Below are positions 20,193 through 52,560 of a stretch of DNA of 64,000 bases, piece by piece. The first letter of the stretch is position 1. The number at the start of each line of letters is the position of its first letter. Made by a program: the position numbers and the translations under genes. The stretch comes from Fimbriimonas ginsengisoli Gsoil 348 (GTDB lineage Bacteria > Armatimonadota > Fimbriimonadia > Fimbriimonadales > Fimbriimonadaceae): the NCBI GenBank assembly GCA_945881865.1, contig CAMCVK010000002.1, positions 186,001 through 250,000 on the forward strand. Direction: 5' to 3'. Below the pieces are notes generated by a model, which did no database searches, was not told where the DNA came from, and saw nothing but the letters and a program-made list of their open reading frames with translations.

Positions 20193-20900
20193 ATGGCAGA
20201 AGAGACCAGCTTCCCATTCGACGATGAAGGCGATGGGCTTCGAGAACCGCAATTCCCGGGTATCCACCTGGAAGCGATCAGCGAACATCTGGATGAGTTC
20301 CTAGATGGCGAGAAAGTCGACTATCACGAAATCATCTCCGACATTGTCCATGTCGACATCCTTCACGTGAAGCCGTCCGAGCGGTTTCCTTTCCACACCC
20401 TGGTGACGAGCGGGATGAGCGAGCTACCGATGAACGCGCCGGAATCGGCCCAATCTTTCCGCCGCGCCGAGCTGGTCATGCACCTTCCGTCCGAGTGGCC
20501 GTTTTCAACGGAGGCCTTTGAAGACCCGAACCACTATTGGCCGATACGATGGCTGAAGACCCTCGCCCGCTATCCACACGAAAACGAAACGTTCCTCGCC
20601 GGTGGCCACACCATTGCGAGCGGAAGCCCCGGCGAAACTCTGGAGAACACGCCGTTCAACGGCTTTATCCTGTGGCCGCCGAACTATTTGCCGGAGGACT
20701 TTTTCGCACTGGAGCTTGAAGACGACAGCCTGATTGCGTTTTGGCAGGTGATCCCGATCTACCAAGATGAGATGGAACTCGTCCGAAAGAAGCGAGGGGA
20801 CGCCCTGATGGACCAGCTTGTCCTGGCGGGCGGTGCCGGTCCGGTGAACATTCACCGCCCGAGTTGCCTCGCAAAGCGCAAGCGATTCGGCTTCTTCTAA
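20193..20900 (+). CDS. Suppressor of fused (SUFU) domain protein, copy 1
   Basis: 235 residues matching the bacterial SUFU domain: HVDILHVKPSERFPFHTLVTSGMSELPMN (about 50-80), RRAELVMHLPSEW, WPIRWLKTLARYPHE, GHTI, NTPFNGFILWPP and the FWQVIPIYQDEMELVRKKRGD block near the C-terminus. Family knowledge: bacterial SUFU proteins often act as immunity proteins to polymorphic toxins. Here no toxin gene is adjacent. It is followed 34 nt later by a second copy, and the two share the C-terminal ending KRKRFG-F. The N-terminus is acidic and probably flexible. Confidence 0.88.
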   Translation: MAEETSFPFDDEGDGLREPQFPGIHLEAISEHLDEFLDGEKVDYHEIISDIVHVDILHVKPSERFPFHTLVTSGMSELPMNAPESAQSFRRAELVMHLPSEWPFSTEAFEDPNHYWPIRWLKTLARYPHENETFLAGGHTIASGSPGETLENTPFNGFILWPPNYLPEDFFALELEDDSLIAFWQVIPIYQDEMELVRKKRGDALMDQLVLAGGAGPVNIHRPSCLAKRKRFGFF

Positions 20901-20934: not shown

Positions 20935-21639
20935 ATGCCGAATGACTTTCCTTTTCCACCGGATGATGAAGAAGTAGAGCTAAGGGAGCCGGTGAATCCG
21001 GCGATTCATTTGGAGGCGATTTCGGCCCATCTGGATCGCTATCTCGGCGGGGAGCGACTCGACTTCCACGAGCGGCAATCCGACCTGGTGCATCTAGACG
21101 TGTTGCATGTGGCCTCCACGCCGCAGGTCCCGTTCCAAACTCTTGCGACTAGCGGCATGAGCGAAATGCCCATGAACGTGCCCGAAGGCTTCGAGCCATT
21201 TCGGCTGGCCGAACTGGTCATGATCCTGCCTTCCGAATGGCCGGTCTCTTACGAGGCGTTTCACGACCCTAAGCTCCGCTGGCCTTTGGAATGGCTCGCG
21301 ATTCTCGCGCGGATTCCTCACGAGAAAGAATCCTACTTTTTCGAGGGCCACACGATCCATAGCTTCGACAGGCAGCCGATCGAAAACACGCCATTTACCG
21401 GATTTATCATCGCCTTGCCGCTCGACCACCCGGAGGGATTTCCCGTGCTGCGACTAGCCGATGGCCGGCCGATCAACTTCTGGCAAGTCGTGCCGGTCTT
21501 GCCGGACGAGATGGCCTACAAGCTAAAGCATGGATCGGACGAGTTGCTCGACATGCTGGGCGACTCCGGGGCTTGCGGCCCGATCGACATTCACCGCAAG
21601 AGTTGCCTCCCGAAGCGCAAGCGCTTCGGGATTTTCTGA
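20935..21639 (+). CDS. Suppressor of fused (SUFU) domain protein, copy 2
   Basis: 234 residues, clearly paralogous to the preceding gene over its full length (VHLDVLHVASTPQVPFQTLATSGMSEMPMN, AELVMILPSEWPVS, WPLEWLAILARIPHE, ENTPFTGFI, FWQVVPVLPDEM). Copies differ at about half of their positions by eye, so the duplication is old. The same reasoning about immunity applies. The gap to copy 1 is 34 nt, so they are probably one transcript. It converges on the pseudopilin gene at 21650. Confidence 0.88.
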   Translation: MPNDFPFPPDDEEVELREPVNPAIHLEAISAHLDRYLGGERLDFHERQSDLVHLDVLHVASTPQVPFQTLATSGMSEMPMNVPEGFEPFRLAELVMILPSEWPVSYEAFHDPKLRWPLEWLAILARIPHEKESYFFEGHTIHSFDRQPIENTPFTGFIIALPLDHPEGFPVLRLADGRPINFWQVVPVLPDEMAYKLKHGSDELLDMLGDSGACGPIDIHRKSCLPKRKRFGIF

Positions 21640-21649
21640 TCCACTCCGC

Positions 21650-22543
21650 TTACTTCGGCGGGTTGGCGAGCGGGTACCGAACCACGTGGTCCGGGTACTG
21701 GTCCAGCCGCGCGCGGCCCCAGCTTGCGAACTTCGCGTGAGTGTCGGCATAGACATAGTTCGCGCCGTTGCCGTGCCGGTCGTACTTGATCCAGCCTTCG
21801 TTCGGTCGGCTGCCGGAGCCCCATCGAACCAACGCGGCCTCGCCCGACCACGTGTCGTAGTCGTCCTGCGGAATGTAGTGGAAGTCGCTTTCTTTATCCA
21901 GAAAGCCCTCGGAGTTGCGCGGCGAGAACATGATGATGTTCGGGTCCGGCAGGCTCGTCAAAACGCTCTCGGTCGCGAAACCAGAAAGGACGCCCTCAAC
22001 GGCGTAGCGGCACGACTTGTGGGTAAAAATCGAGTTGAGCAAGTAGCTCCACATGTTCCAGCCGTTCTGCTCGGCAAGGCACTGCTCGCTTCTAGAATTC
22101 GCCTCACACTCGGTGCCGATCTCCTCGATCCCGCCGTTGTAGTCGTTAATGTTCGTCGAAAGGAACTGCGAACGCGGGGCCGTGTCGGACGGCGAGAACA
22201 GGATTTCGCGCGACTTGAGATACGGCTGGAAGAAGATGGCCCAGGGCTTCTCGGCCTGGCTGTTGCCAAATCCGCCGCCAACGCACTCCGCTTCCGTCGC
22301 CGGAAGGTTCAACGTGAGGGAGCCGTCGTCCAGCACCCAGTCTTCGTGGTGACGGTAGAGGGCACCGTCGTTGTCGTTCAGGTAAAGACCCGTAGAAACG
22401 CCGAGCTGCTTCATGTTGCTCAGGTCGGCCGTCTTTTTCGCGGCGGCCTTTGCTTGAGCGAACATGGGGAAAAGGATCGCCGCCAGAATGGCAATGATCG
22501 CGATAACAACGAGGAGCTCGATAAGGGTAAATGCTCGTTTCAT
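21650..22543 (-). CDS. Prepilin-type N-terminal cleavage/methylation protein (type II pseudopilin-like)
   Basis: 297 residues beginning [20 protein letters not shown]. The short basic leader, the Phe after the cleavage site and Glu at +5 define a prepilin-peptidase substrate. After the hydrophobic helix it continues AAAKKTADLSNMKQLG, then a beta-rich globular domain. This DUF1559-like type is highly expanded in Armatimonadota and Planctomycetota. Function is unknown; a surface or secretion-linked role is assumed. GAGAG upstream is the Shine-Dalgarno. It lies 18 nt after the NTF2-like gene, so it may be the last gene of the CbiMQO operon. Confidence 0.92.
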   Translation of the reverse strand: MKRAFTLIELLVVIAIIAILAAILFPMFAQAKAAAKKTADLSNMKQLGVSTGLYLNDNDGALYRHHEDWVLDDGSLTLNLPATEAECVGGGFGNSQAEKPWAIFFQPYLKSREILFSPSDTAPRSQFLSTNINDYNGGIEEIGTECEANSRSEQCLAEQNGWNMWSYLLNSIFTHKSCRYAVEGVLSGFATESVLTSLPDPNIIMFSPRNSEGFLDKESDFHYIPQDDYDTWSGEAALVRWGSGSRPNEGWIKYDRHGNGANYVYADTHAKFASWGRARLDQYPDHVVRYPLANPPK

Positions 22544-22561: not shown

Positions 22562-23023
22562 TTAAGCTTTTTCGGTTCTTGTGATCTCTTTCTGGGTGAC
22601 CGTGGATCGAAGCCTCCACTTGCCGCCCATCAAAACCCAGGTGTCGAGATAGCGGTGGATGTGTACGATGCTCACCCGCGATTTGGTGATGGGATCGACG
22701 GTCGCTTTCCGCGACGTCTCGTCGGAGGTCACCCGGGCCGTCTTTCCGCTCACGGTCAGGTTCAAGATCTTCGTCTCGTAGGCGTCGACCGGCTTGTTCT
22801 CCTTCTTCCGCTTTCGCAGGCTGGCTCCGTACGCCTTTAAGGGGATGACGGCACCGCTGTACGGCTTCAAGGTGTAGTCGGGGGTCAGAATCGCGAGAAT
22901 CGTCTCGACGTCGTTGGTCTTGGCGGCTTTGCCCCAACGGTTGTACTGCCGCTGGATTTGGGCCCGAACCGTTTCGGCCGGCTGCAAAACGACGATGGCG
23001 GAAATGAGGGTAGCCAGGATCAT
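22562..23023 (-). CDS. Secreted NTF2/SnoaL-like protein
   Basis: 153 residues with a hydrophobic N-terminus (MILATLISAIVVLQPA). An NTF2-like fold follows: helix QIQRQYNRWGKAAKTNDVETILAIL and TPDYTLKPYSG, then strands ending SIVHIHRYLDTWVLMGGKWRL. These proteins often bind small ligands in a cone-shaped pocket. It overlaps cbiO by 4 bp (23020-23023), so it is coupled to the metal transporter, but a link to metal is not evident from residues. Confidence 0.75.
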   Translation of the reverse strand: MILATLISAIVVLQPAETVRAQIQRQYNRWGKAAKTNDVETILAILTPDYTLKPYSGAVIPLKAYGASLRKRKKENKPVDAYETKILNLTVSGKTARVTSDETSRKATVDPITKSRVSIVHIHRYLDTWVLMGGKWRLRSTVTQKEITRTEKA

Positions 23024-23772
23024 ACGGTTGCCTCTTCAAGCGCGGTCAAGTTCGCCCGGCGCAGGCGGCCCAAGTCTCGGAGTACGTCGACCGAGGCGGC
23101 GTCGGCGATCAGATGATGGGTCTCGTCGAGCACCCACGTGCGGTCTGATACCTGCGGAACGAGATCCAGCGTGTGGGTGGCGAGAATCGTTGTCTTTCCG
23201 GATGCACTCAGAATCTGAAGCGTCTTCAGAAGCCAGCTCTGTGAGCGGGGATCGAGACCCAAGAACGGTTCGTCCATTAGAATCACGTCCGGATTCATGC
23301 TGAGAACCGACGCCATGGCCACCTTTCGCTTCTCGCCGCCGCTGAGGCGGAAAGGTGGTCGTTCGGCAAGATGCTGGATTCCCAGCATCCGCATGATGTC
23401 CGTCGTGCGCTCGCGGACCTCGGGTTCGCGCAGACCCATTTGGCGCGGGCCGAATTCGATCTCCTCTTGCACCGTCGCGTTGAATAGCTGGGCATCCGCG
23501 TTCTGAAAGACGAAACCAACCCGCGTGCGGAAGTCCGTTCGTAAGGATGCATCGCGAAGTGACTTTTCGGATAGGTCGGTCCCATCCCAGCGAATGCTGC
23601 CACCGGTCGGAAATTCGAGCCCGGCCAGAATCCGGAGCAGGGTGGATTTGCCGCTGCCGTTCGCCCCTAGGATCACTAGCCGGTCGCCGGCGGCGATGCT
23701 GGCGTCGATGCCGTTCAGAGCCGGGGTTCCGTCCTCGTAGTGGAAGGCGACGTCGCGCAGCTCAAAAAGCAT
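23020..23772 (-). CDS. cbiO: Energy-coupling factor ABC transporter ATPase (Co/Ni type)
   Basis: 250 residues with Walker A GANGSGKST (36-44), Q-loop FQNADAQLF, signature LSGGEKRKVAMA, Walker B VILMDEPFLGLDP and the switch His in LATHTLD. FQNADAQLF with GPRQMGL is the CbiO/EcfA pattern. It powers uptake with the EcfT-type protein encoded upstream and the CbiM-type component. Overlap with cbiQ is 11 bp. Only one ATPase gene is present, as in dedicated Co/Ni ECF systems. Confidence 0.95.
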   Translation of the reverse strand: MLFELRDVAFHYEDGTPALNGIDASIAAGDRLVILGANGSGKSTLLRILAGLEFPTGGSIRWDGTDLSEKSLRDASLRTDFRTRVGFVFQNADAQLFNATVQEEIEFGPRQMGLREPEVRERTTDIMRMLGIQHLAERPPFRLSGGEKRKVAMASVLSMNPDVILMDEPFLGLDPRSQSWLLKTLQILSASGKTTILATHTLDLVPQVSDRTWVLDETHHLIADAASVDVLRDLGRLRRANLTALEEATV

Positions 23773-24688
23773 GGGTCACCCCGCTAGCAATGGAGAGCAC
23801 CAAAAACGTTAAGCAGACCGCCAAAACCACGAAATCGGTCTTCGACCAGCCGGGATTACGGAGGAGCACGGACTTCGCCATGCCGCCCCGGGCTTCAATC
23901 GCCATCTGGACTTCGTGCGCGGTGGTCGCGCTTTTTGCAAAAAGAATCGCCGACCCCGCGCCGGCATAGGCACGACTTCCCTGTGCACGATAGCCAGAAA
24001 TCTGACGGGCTTCGCGGGCTTGGGTCATATCGCCAAGAGTTTCGAGCAGGATAAAGAGGAATCGGTACGTCATTTGCGCCATCGTGATAAAGATTTCGGG
24101 AACGCCAAGCCGCGCCAGCGAACCCAAAATGTCGTTCCAGCGGGTGGTGGATTGCCAAACCGAGGCGATGAGGATCGCGGTTGCGAGCCGAGCCAGAAGA
24201 CAGCCACCTCGCTCCAATCCCGGCCAGGTGACCGCAATCTCGCCAAGTCGCGCAGCTTCAATGCCCGGCGTCACCCAGGCCGTCGCAACCGGGATCGCCA
24301 AAACAAGGCCAAAGAATGCGGCGCTGCCCACAACCCGGCTCAAAAGGCTGATCAGTGGCATTCGGGCGGAGAGAGCCGAGACCAAGCCCAGCCCCGCGAC
24401 GGCGGCCAAGACTTCCGGTGACCGAACAACACTGGCCGCCACCAGAAGACTAAGAAAAGAGATCGCTTTGGCGACCGGGTTCATTTGCGATACGCCGTGT
24501 CTCGCCCGGGCGACGGATTCAAACGCGATGGTTCTTGCGTAGGTCCGTCGAATCTTTGCCACGGTCTGGTTAAGCCAGCGTGAAGGAGCTCGGCCGGAGG
24601 CGACGACTGGATTCGGAGTTCTCATCCAATCGGGAACGGCAAGGCTTGGCGCCAAAGGCATTTGGCTCTGCCTCGCAGGCGACTTCAC
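23762..24688 (-). CDS. cbiQ: Energy-coupling factor transporter transmembrane protein (CbiQ/EcfT)
   Basis: 308 residues with several membrane segments. The two short Ala-Arg-Gly-type coupling motifs that contact the ATPases appear as REARQISGYRAQG and IEARGGMAKS. The first 60 residues are an unusual hydrophilic, Arg-rich extension, so the real start may be downstream near MNPVAKAISFLSLL. The annotated GTG start lies 63 nt after the cbiM stop. It should transmit ATP hydrolysis to the substrate-binding CbiM-type protein. Confidence 0.9.
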   Translation of the reverse strand: MKSPARQSQMPLAPSLAVPDWMRTPNPVVASGRAPSRWLNQTVAKIRRTYARTIAFESVARARHGVSQMNPVAKAISFLSLLVAASVVRSPEVLAAVAGLGLVSALSARMPLISLLSRVVGSAAFFGLVLAIPVATAWVTPGIEAARLGEIAVTWPGLERGGCLLARLATAILIASVWQSTTRWNDILGSLARLGVPEIFITMAQMTYRFLFILLETLGDMTQAREARQISGYRAQGSRAYAGAGSAILFAKSATTAHEVQMAIEARGGMAKSVLLRNPGWSKTDFVVLAVCLTFLVLSIASGVTHAF

Positions 24689-24751
24689 TTGCCGGAGCGC
24701 AACTCGGAGCGCCGAGCCGACGATGGTCGCCCCGACCGCCGCACTAAAAAT

Positions 24752-25663
24752 TTAGCCAAGGATGGCGAGGAAGTTGCCGTCGGCCCCGTGGAACGCATAG
24801 TCCGGCATGGCGGGCCGCGCGAGTTCGGTCGCGTTTGCAATGCCCGCCGGGGCGTACCCAACCATCTGCTTCAGCGTGTCGAGCTCCCACTCGCCCCAGG
24901 CACTTCCGGTCGCCATCAGGCCGAGCGGGGTGTGAACGAAGCAAGCGGTGAGCACGGTCGAGAGTCGGAATCTTGTGCCGATCCGCTCCGCGCCGCCCTT
25001 GAAGTACTCGGGGAAATTCCGGGCCAGGAATGCAACCGCAAAGAGGGTGACAACGGCTTCGGCCGGCCCGGCAACCGCGAGGTGCGAAATCAGCATCGCC
25101 GGAACGGCAACCGAATAGCCAAACGGAAAATAAAGCGCGTGCCCAATGGCATCCGAGGCGAGTAGCGGCTGCGAACCAAGAATCAGCGCGGCCGATAGAG
25201 AGCCCAAGATCGAACCGGCAAATGCTCCGATCGCCACCGCAACCAAGTGGCGAGGTGACCCTGGAGTCGCCGTTCCGGCGACGGCGCGAATGATCGCATG
25301 GGCACTAAAGCTCACGACCAACGCCATGTTCAAGCAGTTGATGCCAAGCGCCAGAATGCCGCCATCACCAAACAGAATCGCCTGCACGGCGAGGGTGAGG
25401 GTCATCCCCAGCAGAGCTGCCCACGGCCCCACCAGAACGGTGAGAAGGGCAATGCCAAGAGCATGAGCCGTCGTTCCCCCGGGGGCAGGCAGGTTGAACA
25501 TCTGCACCACGAAGCAAAACCCCGCGCCCATCGCAAGCAACGGAATCTGCTTTTTGGTGAGTTCGCGGCTCGCTTTGCGGATGGCAGTCGCCCAGAACGG
25601 GGCCATGACCGCAAATCCCGCCGCCTGCGTCACCGGACTTAAGTAGGCGTCGGGAATATGCAT
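24752..25663 (-). CDS. cbiM: CbiM/NikM-type substrate-binding permease of a Ni/Co ECF transporter
   Basis: 303 residues starting MHIPDAYLSP. In this family the amino group of Met1, His2 and a later His ligate the metal, and MHIPD-starts are typical of NikM-type proteins while MHIMEG is typical of CbiM. This hints at nickel, but does not prove it. Membrane segments follow, with FNLPAPGGTTAHALG near 55 holding a further His. The C-terminus is extended, perhaps replacing NikN/CbiN. It is coupled to the upstream His-rich TPR gene by TAATG. Confidence 0.92.
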   Translation of the reverse strand: MHIPDAYLSPVTQAAGFAVMAPFWATAIRKASRELTKKQIPLLAMGAGFCFVVQMFNLPAPGGTTAHALGIALLTVLVGPWAALLGMTLTLAVQAILFGDGGILALGINCLNMALVVSFSAHAIIRAVAGTATPGSPRHLVAVAIGAFAGSILGSLSAALILGSQPLLASDAIGHALYFPFGYSVAVPAMLISHLAVAGPAEAVVTLFAVAFLARNFPEYFKGGAERIGTRFRLSTVLTACFVHTPLGLMATGSAWGEWELDTLKQMVGYAPAGIANATELARPAMPDYAFHGADGNFLAILG

Positions 25664-27060
25664 TAGGGCTGACCAACCTCCAGCCTGGCAAGCAGTCCTT
25701 GCGCGCGGGGCGCATGCACGGCATCAAACTTGTCGTCGATCCTTAGCGCACGGCGAAGGAAGTCGGCCGCATTTGGCTTCTTTCCCGCGGCGGCATAGAT
25801 CTCGCCCGCGTGATAGAGCAGCTTGGGATCTTGCGTGCCCAAGGCCAGCGCACGGTCGATGGCGACGATGGCTTCCTTGATCCGTTTCTGTTTGAAATAC
25901 ACCCACGCCAACGTGTCGTAGGCGTAGATATCCGGCCGCTCCTCGAAATCTCGGACCGCTGCCGCGTACGCACCGTCGAGATCCTGATTCCGGTCGGCAC
26001 AGAACATGGCGTACTGCCGGTCAAGAGAGTGACCGTGCGGCTCTTCCGAGGCATGGGAGTGAGCTCCGTCCTTGCCATGGGAATGAGCGCTTTCGTGCAT
26101 CCCGCCGGCGCTTTCGTGCGAACCGGTCAGTGAAACCACCCGTGCGAGCAGTTGTTTCTCCTTTTCGGGCTCACCAAGGCGTTTGTGGGCTTCCGCCATC
26201 AAGGTTACGATTTCGGGGAGCGTCGCTATGGCATCGGCCCGGGCTGCCCAATCGAGCGCGCCTTGCCAGTTACCATCGCCCGCCGCGAGTCTCGCCATGC
26301 CGAAAAGTGCCTTGTATCCCCTTGGATAGAGCTCGATCGACCGTAGGAATGTTTTCCGTGCGTCGGCTCGGCGGCCCATGTTCAGTTGCTGCTGACCAAG
26401 GCGAGTGTGGAACCAGGCGAGATCGTTGCTTTCGATATCATATCGGGCTTCCGAATCCCGTACGATCTTTTCGTAGAGTGCCAGCGCTTGTTCCGTTTTC
26501 CCTTCGAGGTCAAGCATTCTGGCCTGAATCGCACTGCCGGGAGTGTTGGAAAAAGCGTTAGGGTTCTTCTGAAAAATGGACTGCGCATCGGCGTAGCGGC
26601 CAAGTTCGATCATGATCTCGGCCCTAAGCCGGATTGTCTCGTCGGTTGAAACCTTCGCTTTCTGGATGGCCTCGGTTTCGCGAAGCGAATCCCGAAACCG
26701 ATGCTGGGCAAGGAGGGCCCGCACGACCTTGTTCCAGGCGGTGCCGTTTCCAGCGGTTCGAATCTTTATGCTTCGGCGGGCGGCGGCCTCGGCCTTCACC
26801 GCAGCGTCGTTGTCATCAGATTCACGTGCTTTCGCAAGGTAGGCCGTGGCAAGAAGGGAGTATCCGATCGCTCCGCCGGGATCGCGAAGGACCGCTTGTT
26901 CCTGGTCGGTGATGCGGGCCGGAATGAATGAGGAGTCGTAGGGGGCGCGGGAAAATGTCTTGGCGGCGACCGGGGCGGGGGCGCGGTAGGAACTCGCGAC
27001 AAGAAGCCAGCCGCTAATGATGACGATCGCGGCAAGACCGATGGAAAGGATGAGCTTCAT
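25663..27060 (-). CDS. Membrane-anchored TPR protein with a His-rich loop, part of the metal operon
   Basis: 465 residues from the ATG at 27060, which follows GGGAG; an upstream in-frame start would add 10 residues. One N-terminal membrane segment (LILSIGLAAIVIISGWLLVA) anchors an extracytoplasmic TPR array. At about 314-344 a loop has eight His in roughly 30 residues (GSHESAGGMHESAHSHG, then AHSHASEEPHGHS), then TPRs resume. Such loops bind Ni, Co or Zn. The gene is directly coupled to cbiM, so a metal-delivery or storage role at the transporter is the best inference. No described family with this exact layout is known to me. Confidence 0.82.
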   Translation of the reverse strand: MKLILSIGLAAIVIISGWLLVASSYRAPAPVAAKTFSRAPYDSSFIPARITDQEQAVLRDPGGAIGYSLLATAYLAKARESDDNDAAVKAEAAARRSIKIRTAGNGTAWNKVVRALLAQHRFRDSLRETEAIQKAKVSTDETIRLRAEIMIELGRYADAQSIFQKNPNAFSNTPGSAIQARMLDLEGKTEQALALYEKIVRDSEARYDIESNDLAWFHTRLGQQQLNMGRRADARKTFLRSIELYPRGYKALFGMARLAAGDGNWQGALDWAARADAIATLPEIVTLMAEAHKRLGEPEKEKQLLARVVSLTGSHESAGGMHESAHSHGKDGAHSHASEEPHGHSLDRQYAMFCADRNQDLDGAYAAAVRDFEERPDIYAYDTLAWVYFKQKRIKEAIVAIDRALALGTQDPKLLYHAGEIYAAAGKKPNAADFLRRALRIDDKFDAVHAPRAQGLLARLEVGQP

Positions 27061-27113
27061 TGGCAACTCCCGAAGGAAGGGGTCCGGCACCGAAGTGCCG
27101 GACGGTTATGGCG

Positions 27114-28328
27114 TCAGTACGGGTTGCCCAAGTACGGGAATACCGTCTTGAAATGCTTGCCGCTTGAGGTCACGTTATCGCTGGTCAACGTCGGGATGTC
27201 GTTGCCATCGGCCGGAGCGAGGCCCAGGTCCGAGATCGTCGTGCCGAACACGACGCCGAGCGAAAGGTCCACCACGTCATCCGTGAGGGCTCGTCCGCCG
27301 AAGAGTCCGCCGGTTGCACCGCCGGTCTCAACGCCAAGGTAAGTTGCGTTACCCTGCTTGCTGAGGTCTGCCTTCAGGACGTCCGGCACCAGAACCGCCT
27401 TAATGACGTTTCGGATGGCGGCAGATCGACCCGCCGGCGAGACCATGAAGCTCTCGATGTCCTTCTTGATCTGGCTTGCGTCGTCGATCGGGCTGATCTC
27501 GTTGTTGATCTTGTGTCGGTTGTTGGCAACCGTCGCAAAAACTTCATTGATGACCGGGCGGGCCAAGCGATCCATCTGGACGAACTGGTCGCCATCTTGA
27601 ACGCTGGTCGTCGCCCAAACGCCGATCACACCGAGCGGCATATCGCCGAAGATCTCTCGCTTCGGCAGTTCGATGACGATCGAAAGGACGCTGAATCGGT
27701 TAACCGACAGGAAGTCCTTTGCAACGCCCGGAGACCGCCAGGTGGTGGACTGCGGAGCGTTCGGATTTGAGACCGGAATGCCGTTGATCGGCGTTGCGCG
27801 GTCCGGGAAGATCGTGAAGAACTGCTCGAGGTCAAAGAAGAACGAGTCTTCTCGGGCTCCAGCAAACACGCTGTAGCCTGCTCGCGGGGTGAAGCTCTTG
27901 TTGATCGGTCGTTCGACCGGCGAGAACATGCCGAGCTTGCTGGCAGCACCCAAAAGTGCCGGGGTCTGCGGGAAGCCAACCGAGACGGTCTGTGCCGTTC
28001 CGGTGCCGTTGAACTTGACCTGGAGAACCTTGTCCTCCACGTTGTCGCCGTTGGTGTCGATCTTGAACTGGTACAAGACGCCCGGGTCGAACGACTTGCT
28101 GAGCGAAGTTCCCTTCGCGATGAGCGGGTTTACGTTCATCACCAAAACCACGTCGTCGTTCGGACGGCGGGTGCTGGGGAAGATGTAAACATCGGTGAGG
28201 TCGGTCCCCGGGTTAGCCGCGATTTCGGGCGTGTCCGCGTGGTCCGAGGCTTGAGACTGGCCGATGAAGGCCGCCGGAGCGGCCATCGCGGCAAAAGCAA
28301 CAGAGAATAGGATCTTTACTGGATGCAT
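27114..28328 (-). CDS. DUF4331 domain secreted protein
   Basis: 404 residues from the ATG at 28328, supported by AAGGA 8 nt upstream; a longer reading is possible but lacks support. Signal peptide about 1-27 (AAMAAPAAFIGQSQASDHADTPEIA). Family motifs follow: SDHADTPEI, DLTDVYIFPSTRRPNDDVVLVMNVNP and ALTDDVVDLSLGV. DUF4331 proteins are secreted and of unknown biochemical role. This gene starts the operon that continues with the His-rich TPR protein 53 nt later. The mature N-terminus exposes SDHAD, which could coordinate metal, but that is speculation. Arg is often CGA here. Confidence 0.88.
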   Translation of the reverse strand: MHPVKILFSVAFAAMAAPAAFIGQSQASDHADTPEIAANPGTDLTDVYIFPSTRRPNDDVVLVMNVNPLIAKGTSLSKSFDPGVLYQFKIDTNGDNVEDKVLQVKFNGTGTAQTVSVGFPQTPALLGAASKLGMFSPVERPINKSFTPRAGYSVFAGAREDSFFFDLEQFFTIFPDRATPINGIPVSNPNAPQSTTWRSPGVAKDFLSVNRFSVLSIVIELPKREIFGDMPLGVIGVWATTSVQDGDQFVQMDRLARPVINEVFATVANNRHKINNEISPIDDASQIKKDIESFMVSPAGRSAAIRNVIKAVLVPDVLKADLSKQGNATYLGVETGGATGGLFGGRALTDDVVDLSLGVVFGTTISDLGLAPADGNDIPTLTSDNVTSSGKHFKTVFPYLGNPY

Positions 28329-28525
28329 CGGTGAATTCCTTAGGGAGGGTTCCCTTACCACCCCGCTTCGTCGATCCAAATCGCGCCACTGGCTAGGGCC
28401 GGTGGGCGGAATTTCTAGCGACTCACCGAAGTGCTTGCATCCATTCTAACAGCCGCCAGCGCAAAAGGTGCCAATTCTTGCGCATTTTTTAACACTTTTT
28501 ATGAAATCTTCCGGCGAACGATCTT
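28329..28525 (-). promoter_or_regulatory. Leader/promoter region of the DUF4331 metal operon
   Basis: The 197-bp gap after the AAA ATPase gene holds the promoter and 5' leader of the operon. A TAGAAT hexamer on the minus strand lies near 28446, and a TTGGCA further upstream has a 20-nt spacer, which is long. Downstream the leader can form a GCTAG/CTAGC hairpin and a GGGT/ACCC hairpin before the Shine-Dalgarno. I cannot match it to the cobalamin or NiCo riboswitch. Confidence 0.35.
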
Positions 28526-30013
28526 CTAGTCCCCGTCGTTCTTGCTCGCCGGTCGCGTGCGGGTGCTCGCCCATTCACGCAGATTAGAGATCTCCTCACC
28601 CATCATGACGCTAAGGGGAACAACCGCTTTTGCTTCGCCAATGAGGTCTTTTTGCGCCAATTCTCGTTCCTCGTGGAATGCCGTAAACAGGGCTCCGATG
28701 ACTACCTGCTCGATCTCGGCACCACTGAACCCGGACGTCGCCTCAGAGAGCGCCTTCAGCTTGAACTTCTTGGGATCTCGCTTTCGCTTGGCGAGATGGA
28801 TGCGAAAAATCTCCTGTCGCTCGGGGCCATCGGGCAGGTCGACGAAGAAGATTTCGTCGAAACGACCCTTCCGCAGCATTTCCGGCGGCAGCGCCGAGAC
28901 GTCGTTCGCGGTCGCGATGAGGAAGACCGGCGAGGTCTTCTCACTCATCCATGTGAGGAAGGTGGCAAAGACGCGGGCGGTTGTTCCGCTATCGCTTACC
29001 GAACCCCCGCTGACGCCGGCAAAGCCTTTCTCAAGCTCATCTGCCCAAAGAATGCAGGGAGCGACCGATTCGGCCGTGCTGATTGCCTTGCGGATGTTCT
29101 CTTCGCTCTGGCCTACAAGCGAGCCGAAAATACGGCCCACGTCTAGCTTTAGAAGCGGCAAGTTCCACTGCGCCGCCACGGCTTTCGCGGTGAGGGACTT
29201 TCCGCAACCCTGAACGCCGAGGAGCAAAATTCCTTTAGGCGAAGGGATTCCGAACTCCCTCGCGCGGTCGGTGAAGCTGCTGGTGCGGCGGTCGAGCCAC
29301 TCCTTCAAAAGGTCCAATCCACCCACGTCGCGGAGGGCGGCGTCCGGCGCGTAGTACTCCAAAATTCCCGTCTTGCGGATGATCTGCTTCTTTTCGTTGA
29401 GCACGACGTCCACGTCAAACTTTTTGCGCTCGACGAGGGAGCGAGCAAACGTCGACTCGATCTCGTCCTTCGTGAGGCCCTGCGCCGACTTCACGAGTAG
29501 CTCGCGCTCCAGCGGTTCGAGTGCGGTCGATATGCCTTCTTTCGTACCAACGAACCGGATGAGGCTGTCGAGAATGCCCTCGATCTCTTCCACGTTCGGC
29601 AGCGGAAAGTCGATGACGGTGATGTCTTTTTCCAGTTCGGCGGGAAGCGTTAGGACCGGTCCGCTGAGGATGAGCGTTTTGCTGGAGGCGCGCAGGCGGG
29701 CCGCGACGTCCCGCAGAAGCCGCACGACGCGGTAGTCCTTCAGGTAAGGATGGAAGTCCCGCAGTAAGAAAACGGTGTTATCGTCGGCTTCCAAGACCCG
29801 GGCGAGGGCTTCGATTTCCGGCGAGAGCTTGCTTCCGGCGTTTTCCAGCGGCGGCCGGAAGCCCTGGGTGACGGTCCAAGTCCGCAGAGTTCGCGACAGC
29901 GTTTTGCACACCGAAGCGACGGCCTCTTCGACGCGCCGTTCTTCCCACGAAACGAGGTAGATGATCGGATACTTCGCCCGAATCAGGACTTCGATTTCAC
30001 GGCTCGCAGGCAT
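28526..30013 (-). CDS. Ycf46-like AAA+ ATPase
   Basis: 495 residues from the ATG at 30013; the longer frame adds an unlikely Arg-rich segment. The N-terminal half (1-215) has a degenerate P-loop-like fold with no Walker A. The C-terminal AAA domain has Walker A GVQGCGKS (266-273), Walker B ILWADELEK (321-329), sensor FLIATANDVSALPPEMLRKGRFDE and EQVVIGALFTAFHEERE. This is the Ycf46 layout. In cyanobacteria Ycf46 is implicated in CO2 and photosynthesis regulation; here the function is unknown. No partner gene adjoins. Confidence 0.87.
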   Translation of the reverse strand: MPASREIEVLIRAKYPIIYLVSWEERRVEEAVASVCKTLSRTLRTWTVTQGFRPPLENAGSKLSPEIEALARVLEADDNTVFLLRDFHPYLKDYRVVRLLRDVAARLRASSKTLILSGPVLTLPAELEKDITVIDFPLPNVEEIEGILDSLIRFVGTKEGISTALEPLERELLVKSAQGLTKDEIESTFARSLVERKKFDVDVVLNEKKQIIRKTGILEYYAPDAALRDVGGLDLLKEWLDRRTSSFTDRAREFGIPSPKGILLLGVQGCGKSLTAKAVAAQWNLPLLKLDVGRIFGSLVGQSEENIRKAISTAESVAPCILWADELEKGFAGVSGGSVSDSGTTARVFATFLTWMSEKTSPVFLIATANDVSALPPEMLRKGRFDEIFFVDLPDGPERQEIFRIHLAKRKRDPKKFKLKALSEATSGFSGAEIEQVVIGALFTAFHEERELAQKDLIGEAKAVVPLSVMMGEEISNLREWASTRTRPASKNDGD

Positions 30014-30102
30014 GGGCCTAGGGTACCGGAGACCCCTATCCTTCGCAGGGGAATTCGTGGTGCGGTGGCACAGCCACCGCACCGTGAGTCACACCGAATA
30101 GA

Positions 30103-49208: not shown

Positions 49209-49760
49209 ATGAAAAACCACCTTCTTGTCATCTCGGTGGCGTCCGCGATCGGGTTTTCCGCCACCGGCCACGCCGCGCTAATTCACCTTGAACACACCGA
49301 GTTCATCGTGAAGTACGACCCGGCGTATTCGCTAGTTTCCTGGTCCGTCCCAATCGCTGGATCAGTTACGCTTGACCATGAAACGGACATCGCCATACCG
49401 TCCGCTTACGAGTTAGTCGGCGAAGAACCCCAACCGTGGGATCTTGACAGAGGAATCCTCTACTTTAACGCTGCGAACCGTCCCAACTTTATCGGTGAGG
49501 GCACGCACAAGTTTTATCGATGGAATGGGACGACCAGACTTGAATTCAATTCCCTATCGCAACCATTGGCAGGCGATATACGACAGTACCGACTTTATGC
49601 GGGTGTGAACCCGCCACTAGATGAGGGAAATCCGGCCGACTATCTGCAGAGTCCCTATGTGGACATCACGCTGCACTTCGTGCCCGTGCCGGAGCCGGCG
49701 AGCATGGCCGTCCTCGGCCTCGGCGCCCTTGCGCTTCTGCGAAGAAAGAAGAAAGCCTGA
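49209..49760 (+). CDS. PEP-CTERM sorting domain protein, copy 1
   Basis: 183 residues. The N-terminal signal peptide (LLVISVASAIGFSATGHAA) and the C-terminal VPEPASMAVLGLGALALLRRKKK, with VPEP, a hydrophobic helix and a basic tail, mark it for exosortase processing at the surface. The middle is a beta-rich unknown domain starting LIHLEHTEFIV. The exosortase is not in the window. It is paralogous to the next gene and shares GATCCTGCGATAA just upstream of the start and an identical 50-bp palindromic repeat downstream. Confidence 0.9.
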   Translation: MKNHLLVISVASAIGFSATGHAALIHLEHTEFIVKYDPAYSLVSWSVPIAGSVTLDHETDIAIPSAYELVGEEPQPWDLDRGILYFNAANRPNFIGEGTHKFYRWNGTTRLEFNSLSQPLAGDIRQYRLYAGVNPPLDEGNPADYLQSPYVDITLHFVPVPEPASMAVLGLGALALLRRKKKA

Positions 49761-49765
49761 ATCAG

Positions 49766-49815
49766 CTCTGAACCCCTCTCCAATCTGTTGGAGAGGGGCA
49801 GGGGTGAGGCAAAAG
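49766..49815. repeat. 50-bp palindromic repeat, copy A
   Basis: Identical over 50 bp to 50531-50580. The core is an 11-bp stem CCCCTCTCCAA / TTGGAGAGGGG around TCTG (49773-49798), then CAGGGGTGAGGC and AAAAG. It begins 5 bp after a PEP-CTERM stop codon and could serve as its terminator. Confidence 0.9.
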
Positions 49816-49958
49816 AAGCAATGCTGTCTAAAGAAACCATTGACCCGTTGATTTCCGACGGCGTGGACGCTCGCATAGTGGACGTACCAACGGGCACGAG
49901 CCTCGATCTCATCTCCACAACTACTACATCTCCCGATTCTTGGATCCTGCGATAACTC

Positions 49959-50525
49959 ATGAACACCTCCTTAACGATTTTCTCGATCGCCGCCCTCGGC
50001 TGCATGGCTGCCAGTAGCCAGGCAGCTATGATCCATCTCGACCAGACGAACTTCAACGTCTACTTGAATAGACCCTCTGCAGTCCTCGATTGGTCAGCAC
50101 CCGCCAGCGGCCGCCTTACTTTAGAGGCGGGCGAAATTGGCGCTAGGCCGATCGCGTTCGAACTTGACGGGCGTGGAAATCTTCTCCCTCACGACTACGA
50201 CAGGGGAATGTACTTCCTCGCTGGAACTGAGTCCTTGTTTGAGGGCGAGGGGGAGCACTCATTCGGCCAAGGCGGACAAGAAGTCCGACACGTGTTTCAA
50301 GCCACAGTGTTTCCAAGTGCTGGAGAAACACGGACCTACCGCCTATATGCTGGGACCAATGTTTTTGAAGATTCGGACGATCCCTACGACTATGCCAACG
50401 ATGTGTTTGTAGACATTACATTCCAATTTAGCGACGGAGTTGCACCACCCGTACCGGAACCGGCGAGCATGGCCGTCCTCGGCCTCGGCGCCCTCGCCCT
50501 CTTGCGACGAAAGAAGAAAGCCTGA
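49959..50525 (+). CDS. PEP-CTERM sorting domain protein, copy 2
   Basis: 188 residues with signal peptide (TIFSIAALGCMAASSQAA), a domain starting MIHLDQTNFNVYL, and the C-terminal VPEPASMAVLGLGALALLRRKKKA, identical in its last residues to copy 1. Mid-parts are only loosely similar (e.g. TRTYRLYAGTNVF vs IRQYRLYAGVNPP), so the pair arose by an old duplication with the sorting tail conserved. Exosortase substrates are often exported to the surface or matrix. A short frame ends 3 nt before the ATG, but I do not consider it a gene. Confidence 0.88.
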   Translation: MNTSLTIFSIAALGCMAASSQAAMIHLDQTNFNVYLNRPSAVLDWSAPASGRLTLEAGEIGARPIAFELDGRGNLLPHDYDRGMYFLAGTESLFEGEGEHSFGQGGQEVRHVFQATVFPSAGETRTYRLYAGTNVFEDSDDPYDYANDVFVDITFQFSDGVAPPVPEPASMAVLGLGALALLRRKKKA

Positions 50526-50530
50526 AGCGC

Positions 50531-50580
50531 CTCTGAACCCCTCTCCAATCTGTTGGAGAGGGGCAGGGGTGAGGCAAAAG
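50531..50580. repeat. 50-bp palindromic repeat, copy B
   Basis: Exact copy of 49766-49815, again 5 bp after a PEP-CTERM stop codon. The identity is far above that of the two genes' bodies, which suggests recent conversion or a mobile repeat. Confidence 0.9.
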
Positions 50581-50901
50581 GTTGGGCCTCCCTACCACAG
50601 AGTTTGGCGGGAAACCGTTTACGTTGAGTTGCAATTATAATGACTCTATAATTTTATTATTTAAGCCTCATCCCTTCCCTTCTCCCCAGGGAGAAGGGTT
50701 CAGACAGCCTTCGCGTTCGATCCCGGTTAGCCCGAAGGGCTGTAGCCGACGGCTCCGTGCCGTCGCTAAAGCGATTGCCCTGGGCCGGAAGGCCTCCGGC
50801 ACTCGCAAGAAAAAACCGTAAACTCCGGCAAGCCTTCCAGCGTCGCCAGCCCGTATTATAAGTAACGGTTCTGCGGGACACTCAACGAACCGAAAAACCT
50901 C
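50581..50901. other. Gene-free stretch with AT-rich block and hairpins
   Basis: No gene is seen. An AT-rich part (about 50630-50665) contains two TATAAT hexamers (50635 and 50647), unusual in this GC-rich DNA. Further hairpins follow: CCCTTCTCCC/GGGAGAAGGG (50677-50698), and CGACGGC/GCCGTCG and GGCCGGAAGGCC-type palindromes around 50745-50805. This may hold promoters for the ATPase gene at 50902 or decayed repeat copies. Confidence 0.5.
50677..50698. repeat. C-rich/G-rich palindrome
   Basis: CCCTTCTCCC (50677-50686), CA, GGGAGAAGGG (50689-50698), a 10-bp perfect stem, preceded by GCCTCATCCC as in the reverse complement of the 50-bp repeats. Confidence 0.7.

Positions 50902-52560
<1,659 letters not shown>

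Follow-up and report, generated by a model that had tools for sequence, protein, structure and literature searches.

The operon described here lies on the minus strand of a contig of Fimbriimonas ginsengisoli Gsoil 348 (CAMCVK010000002.1), within a stretch of 64,000 nucleotides (nt) that was analysed as a whole and is referred to as the window. Positions are window coordinates; for the sequences compared with it, G-numbers denote genomes and L-numbers denote loci. In the order of transcription, six genes code for a secreted protein with DUF4331 (a domain of unknown function), a tetratricopeptide repeat (TPR) protein, the CbiM, CbiQ and CbiO components of an energy-coupling factor (ECF) transporter, and a secreted NTF2-like protein (Table 1). 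The first two genes are separated by a gap of 53 nt, TPR and CbiM are joined by TAATG, and overlaps of 11 nt and 4 nt are found between CbiQ and CbiO and between CbiO and the NTF2-like gene, respectively. Every terminator-like site on the minus strand is located within a gene, their number (13, compared to 8.1 in shuffled sequences, standard deviation 2.7) being in modest excess. A preliminary description had reported six coupled genes, an MHIPD start of CbiM and the absence of a terminator between the genes, and its coordinates, families and junctions were borne out. The operon is real, and the core idea of that description, metal capture ahead of a nickel/cobalt (Ni/Co) transporter, holds, although the capture element differs from the His-rich loop that had been named.

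We consider the locus to code for an ECF-type importer of the Ni/Co family (CbiM-PDGLE, CbiQ, CbiO) together with an extracytoplasmic capture module, and assign a probability of about 0.55 to this reading. The transporter resembles the Cbi/NikMNQO Ni/Co importers in the MHIPD start of CbiM, the NikN-like PDGLE domain, CbiQ and CbiO (PMC2667541), so that an S component starting with Met-His, a T component and an ATPase are all present; an intact N component (CbiN or PDGLE/NikN) was not found in the window operon. For CbiO, the best NCBIfam matches are TIGR04521 and TIGR01166, both below their cut-offs. The operon differs from these importers by the additional DUF4331, TPR and NTF2-like genes, by the lack of NikK and NikL, neither of which was seen in the operon, and by a stop codon that splits the M-N-Q fusion found in relatives.

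Of 201 genomes of Armatimonadota, 31 have DUF4331 and 75 have CbiM, but the two were seen side by side in only three genomes of a single genus, namely the window genome, G123 and G211. In both congeners the complete order DUF4331-TPR-CbiMQ-CbiO-NTF2 is kept. This includes the NTF2-like gene, whose membership in the operon had been suspected; it is the last gene in both cases and is missing beside CbiMQ-CbiO in G200, a genome without DUF4331. When association is defined as a Ni/Co permease on the same strand and at most three genes away, NicO follows DUF4331-TPR in each of the 25 cyanobacterial loci that could be evaluated. NicO, NicO plus NiCoT, HupE or CbiMQO accompany DUF4331 in 16 of 28 armatimonadotal loci (one of them, L165, is doubtful), as does a Ni/Co permease in 9 of 22 loci from other groups. 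Distant open reading frames (ORFs) of the same loci, used as control, gave 0 of 207 overall and 0 of 167 for Cyanobacteria and Armatimonadota. As the loci are phylogenetically clumped, these counts represent non-independent trials, and the range of different partner families carries more weight.

This diversity extends over at least five bacterial phyla, among them Cyanobacteria, Armatimonadota, Actinomycetota and Pseudomonadota, and one archaeon, with partners from the Pfam families NicO (PF03824), HupE_UreJ_2 (PF13795) and HupE_UreJ (PF04955). RefSeq annotation independently gives the same picture: DUF4331 is followed by a hypothetical protein (TPR by homology) and TauE/SafE on a Nostoc plasmid, by TPR and a nickel transporter in Streptomyces (Actinomycetota), by HupE/UreJ and in another case by HoxN/NixA in Rhizobium, and by an Ig-like protein, TPR and HupE/UreJ in Pseudoalteromonas. 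In a Gemmatimonadota genome, TPR-HupE adjoins a DUF4331 stretch that had been split by ORF labelling. The archaeal DUF4331 (Thaumarchaeota, L071:7998-8969), which lacks a signal peptide, is two genes away from a NicO-like permease. NicO, an RcnA-like transporter, is the partner in Cyanobacteria, Armatimonadota and Actinomycetota, and in the window operon CbiMQO takes its place. Because the pair recurs with non-homologous permeases, the objection that the neighbourhood might not be conserved in other Armatimonadota does not hold. The proposal of a periplasmic DUF4331-TPR module serving a Ni/Co transporter is thus supported, and the pair probably acts as a helper in metal capture more generally.

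The window copy is the one DUF4331 gene found in its genome. Its signal peptide is predicted to be cleaved after QSQA, so that the mature protein would begin with Ser-Asp-His. Of 91 distinct DUF4331 N-termini, 89 have such a predicted X-X-His start. In 82 of the 91 contexts, position -1 is A, G or S with an acceptable residue at -3; in seven, X-X-His directly follows the initiator Met, and as residue 2 is Ser or Ala, removal of Met is expected; the other two have Thr at -1. Usual tripeptides after a signal peptide are Ser-Asp-His, Ser-Ser-His, Ala-Ser-His and Ala-Asp-His. The Met-start cases, which have no signal peptide, include M-ADH in the archaeon (L071) and M-SNH and M-SHH in actinobacteria and proteobacteria. 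As the search pattern itself demanded His, a separate check was made via the first conserved block: a His is found 7-34 residues upstream of it in all 94 distinct ORFs bearing that block. In a 38-row alignment, 30 rows extend to this position, and D and H are conserved there without exception.

The amino-terminal Cu(II)- and Ni(II)-binding (ATCUN) motif, NH2-X-X-His, binds Ni(II) and Cu(II) in square-planar geometry (PMC7701195). The predicted tip of DUF4331 looks like such a motif, and an ATCUN site would require the His to stand at residue 3 after signal cleavage and after loss of Met alike, as is predicted here. By its predicted mature start, DUF4331 would share the NH2-X-X-His sequence with known ATCUN proteins, of which serum albumin is an example (PMC7701195), but it would be an operon-linked periplasmic capture protein.

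The X-X-His N-terminus is a better conserved candidate for metal capture than the His-rich loop of the TPR protein. The preliminary description was correct in that the TPR protein is anchored (by its N-terminus) and carries eight His in about 30 residues. That this loop captures metal is not upheld: at least eight His per 30 residues occur in only 3 of 53 TPR proteins, namely that of the window and two from another genus (L067, L068), while those of the syntenic congeners have four. In an AlphaFold2 (AF2) model, the TPR protein is a helical solenoid with a predicted local distance difference test (pLDDT) score of 88.9, in which residues 315-343 have low confidence and are predicted to be disordered. 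The loop is thus a local add-on and not a feature of the TPR family, while the TPR protein as such is kept together with DUF4331 across phyla.

DUF4331 is a single fused protein in the window, whereas most Armatimonadota of the subfamily have two adjoining genes (L036, L060, L063, L068 and others), coding for a secreted N-terminal half and a C-terminal half that is a lipoprotein (LxGC). By sequence, no known fold and no solved relative were found. The AF2 model (pLDDT 78.5) is a beta-sandwich whose similarity to common Ig-like folds is weak and uninformative (best match VIA, Z 6.1). No paper on DUF4331 was found with the identifiers used in a search of literature outside the subscription journals.

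Table 1. Features of the DUF4331-TPR-CbiMQO operon and of related leaders.
Feature	Position	Strand	Remarks
Operon leader	28329-28525	minus	
DUF4331 protein, secreted	27114-28328	minus	404 aa, ATG at 28328; PF14224 172.3 bits, cut-off 27
Predicted DUF4331 signal peptide	28248-28328	minus	from sequence, -3/-1 rule
Ser-Asp-His codons, predicted mature N-terminus	28239-28247	minus	from sequence; predicted cleavage ...QSQA/SDH; ATCUN-like X-X-His
TPR protein, N-terminal membrane anchor	25663-27060	minus	465 aa, ATG at 27060; TPR families
His-rich loop of TPR protein	26029-26118	minus	8 His in 30 residues (residues 315-344); disordered in model; not conserved
CbiM/NikM-like ECF S component with truncated PDGLE (NikN-like) domain	24752-25663	minus	MHIPD start; PF01891 172 bits
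In-frame TAA	24752-24754	minus	interrupts CbiM-PDGLE-CbiQ fusion; Tyr codons in intact fusions of three congeners
CbiQ ECF T component	23762-24688	minus	as called, GTG start, same frame as CbiM; PF02361 94 bits; TIGR02454 120.8 bits, cut-off 111.8
CbiO ECF ATPase	23020-23772	minus	PF00005 115 bits; GANGSGKST, LSGGE and LMDEP motifs
NTF2-like (DUF4440) protein, secreted	22562-23023	minus	PF14534 29.6 bits
TTCA direct repeats, several Fimbriimonadaceae	L091:8060, L095:5410, L149:5783, L153:6549, L159:7377		

The following working can be proposed for the operon. DUF4331 would be exported, and signal peptidase would expose the N-terminal Ser-Asp-His, which as an ATCUN-type chelate may coordinate Ni(II) or Cu(II), Co(II) being a further possibility. 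Anchored in the membrane, the TPR solenoid would tether or dock DUF4331 beside the permease. Metal would then be handed to an N-terminal site of the permease and imported. In CbiM this site would be Met-His, and in NicO and HupE partners from other species it would be His1; the permeases would be interchangeable. The Met-His start of CbiM is a known ECF Ni/Co site. Most NicO and HupE partners show A-x-A followed by H-P-[LM]-G, or A followed by H, after the signal peptide (His1); examples among HupE_UreJ_2 partners are L121, L093 and L062. A metal relay between terminal chelates would therefore be plausible. More tentatively, and with somewhat less than even confidence, we propose that DUF4331 is a widespread ATCUN-type capture family, its X-X-His tip being the conserved functional site generated by signal peptidase or Met removal, and that it forms a plug-in module together with a TPR docking protein. 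This module would serve permeases for Ni/Co (or Cu) that are not homologous but can replace one another, and that would accept the metal at N-termini of their own, His1 or Met-His. If true, a function would be assigned to a domain of unknown function that is distributed from archaea to streptomycetes, a single exposed tripeptide would be predicted to bind metal, and a general extracytoplasmic capture step would be added to Ni/Co import, which has mostly been described as permease-only.

Among the closest parallels are N-terminal-His proteins. For the "anglerase" domains of HupE/UreJ-2 proteins, which resemble most NicO and HupE partners of DUF4331-TPR in their His1 start, binding of Cu with a Kd of 74 nM (Ang-1) and of Ni (220 nM) has been shown, and a role in feeding the permease has been proposed (PMC12537917). 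Anglerases Ang-1 and Ang-2 combine an extracytoplasmic capture part, an N-terminal metal-binding residue and a Ni permease, as is predicted for DUF4331. DUF4331 differs from them in being a separate protein from another Pfam family, with His at residue 3, a TPR partner and several permease families; a His1 domain fused to HupE/UreJ-2 is not what is found in the window, where DUF4331 is unfused. The periplasmic binders DUF4198 and DUF6702, of which DUF4198 sits near Ni genes, are likewise secreted with a terminal chelate after signal cleavage, as predicted for DUF4331, but belong to different families and have His1 rather than X-X-His3 (PMC12537917).

With respect to the metal, the permease families point to Ni/Co, and nickel is our best guess for the window genome, while copper or cobalt may be handled instead. 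A LarA homologue of full length, LarA_C included, is encoded in this genome (213.7 bits), and the LarA family uses a nickel-pincer cofactor; two proteins with B12-binding domains are also present. As the ECF, NiCoT and HupE transporters belong to importer families, we infer that transport is inward.

Several observations weigh against the proposed capture-and-import function. No urease, NiFe hydrogenase or CbiC was found in the window genome. An adjoining Ni/Co permease is lacking at 12 of the 28 armatimonadotal DUF4331 loci, four of them in the genus of the window, and at about 12 of the 22 loci from other groups. Those DUF4331 proteins that have no signal peptide would function in the cytosol. 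ATCUN sites prefer Cu(II). The PhoB-like repeats upstream of DUF4331 in relatives, described below, are no recognised metal-responsive element, and the transporter gene of the window itself contains a stop codon. Finally, Ang-1 binds Cu more tightly than Ni (PMC12537917).

The stop codon shows that CbiM and CbiQ are not an ordinary gene pair but an interrupted fusion, a point that the preliminary description missed. Both are in one frame, and translation with read-through results in a single protein interrupted by one TAA. Intact CbiM-PDGLE-CbiQ fusions of 619-661 aa are present in the congeners G123 (L091), G211 (L151, which is the same locus as L060) and G200 (L162), with TAT or TAC at the corresponding position, and armatimonadotal CbiM genes commonly have open frames of about 640 aa. 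Recoding of the stop codon was considered and is unlikely, as TAA is an ordinary stop that also terminates the TPR gene. The TAA may be a recent nonsense mutation, may have split the gene with re-initiation at GTG 24688, or may be a consensus error. Annotation of CbiM and CbiQ as separate genes can thus conceal a broken or re-initiated transporter.

It follows that the window copy might be decaying, with PDGLE truncated, CbiQ severed and the importer non-functional in this organism, or that the stop might be an assembly error; we regard this as rather unlikely. Apart from the lone TAA at a position held by Tyr in three congeners, such decay would be consistent with the PDGLE score of 23.9 bits, which is below the Pfam cut-off of 27 (the two syntenic relatives score 42.0 and 30.6 bits), and with an identity to these relatives that is lower after the stop (37-41%) than ahead of it (56-58%), although CbiQ may just evolve faster. 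However, the frame stays open for about 330 residues after the TAA without a second stop or frameshift, both halves exceed the Pfam cut-offs as CbiM and CbiQ, CbiO and the NTF2-like gene are intact and coupled, and CbiQ could be produced by re-initiation at the GTG. It is far less probable still that an ordinary Cbi/NikMNQO importer lies beside unrelated secreted genes by coincidence. Most CbiM genes of Armatimonadota indeed have no DUF4331 beside them, but the exact order is kept in two congeners and the module is kept with other permeases, so that this explanation is largely refuted by synteny.

The same metals might be handled for export and tolerance, DUF4331 and TPR binding excess periplasmic Ni, Co or Cu and an RcnA-like NicO exporting it, with the CbiMQO pairing as a minor exception. 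NicO is the commonest partner, RcnA-type NicO proteins can be exporters, and the cyanobacterial partner is annotated as sulfite exporter TauE/SafE. Since HupE, NiCoT and ECF CbiMQO are importer families, and only an import role is compatible with every partner, we consider export improbable. A similarly low probability is given to another envelope role of DUF4331-TPR, for example in nutrient stress under a PhoB/OmpR-type regulator, with the Ni/Co permeases being mere co-regulated neighbours. Many DUF4331 genes are solitary and several members have upstream repeats resembling PhoP/PhoB boxes, but co-regulation alone hardly explains why, in many phyla, DUF4331-TPR is paired again and again with Ni/Co permeases that are not homologous.

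These repeats consist of two to three TTCA units with a spacing of 11 bp in the DUF4331 leaders of G123, G169, G206, G207, G214, G221, G224 and others, and are rare elsewhere in the 371 kb scanned. They are absent from the window leader and were not found in cyanobacteria, which also speaks against an envelope role. They resemble the operators of PhoB/PhoP/OmpR-type regulators, in which 7-bp repeats are separated by 4-bp spacers (PMC4832192). The TTCA repeats are the main unexplained observation and keep a non-metal role alive. A B12 riboswitch or other known RNA was not detected, as neither the window leader nor any of 24 related loci matched Rfam; the one riboswitch match of the genome is on another contig. 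The RNA structure of the window leader does not exceed that of shuffled sequences (z 0.08). At the Pseudoalteromonas DUF4331-TPR-HupE cluster, genes for an extracytoplasmic function sigma factor and an anti-sigma factor are located directly upstream (L121:3577-4781).

Upstream of the operon, an AAA ATPase gene (28526-30082) ends 197 nt before DUF4331. On the other side, a pseudopilin gene (21650-22543) comes 18 nt after the operon and may be a member of it. It is not part of the two syntenic congener operons. Pilin-like (N_methyl) genes are found within DUF4331-TPR modules at L093, L156 and L161, and similar pilins also occur at unrelated places; pilins of this kind are common in these genomes. 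Tandem genes with a SUFU domain (PF05076) adjoin the operon on the plus strand (20193-20900 and 20935-21639). Elsewhere in the window (49209-50913), two adjoining genes code for PEP-CTERM-like secreted proteins, and their 3' ends and downstream sequences are near-identical.

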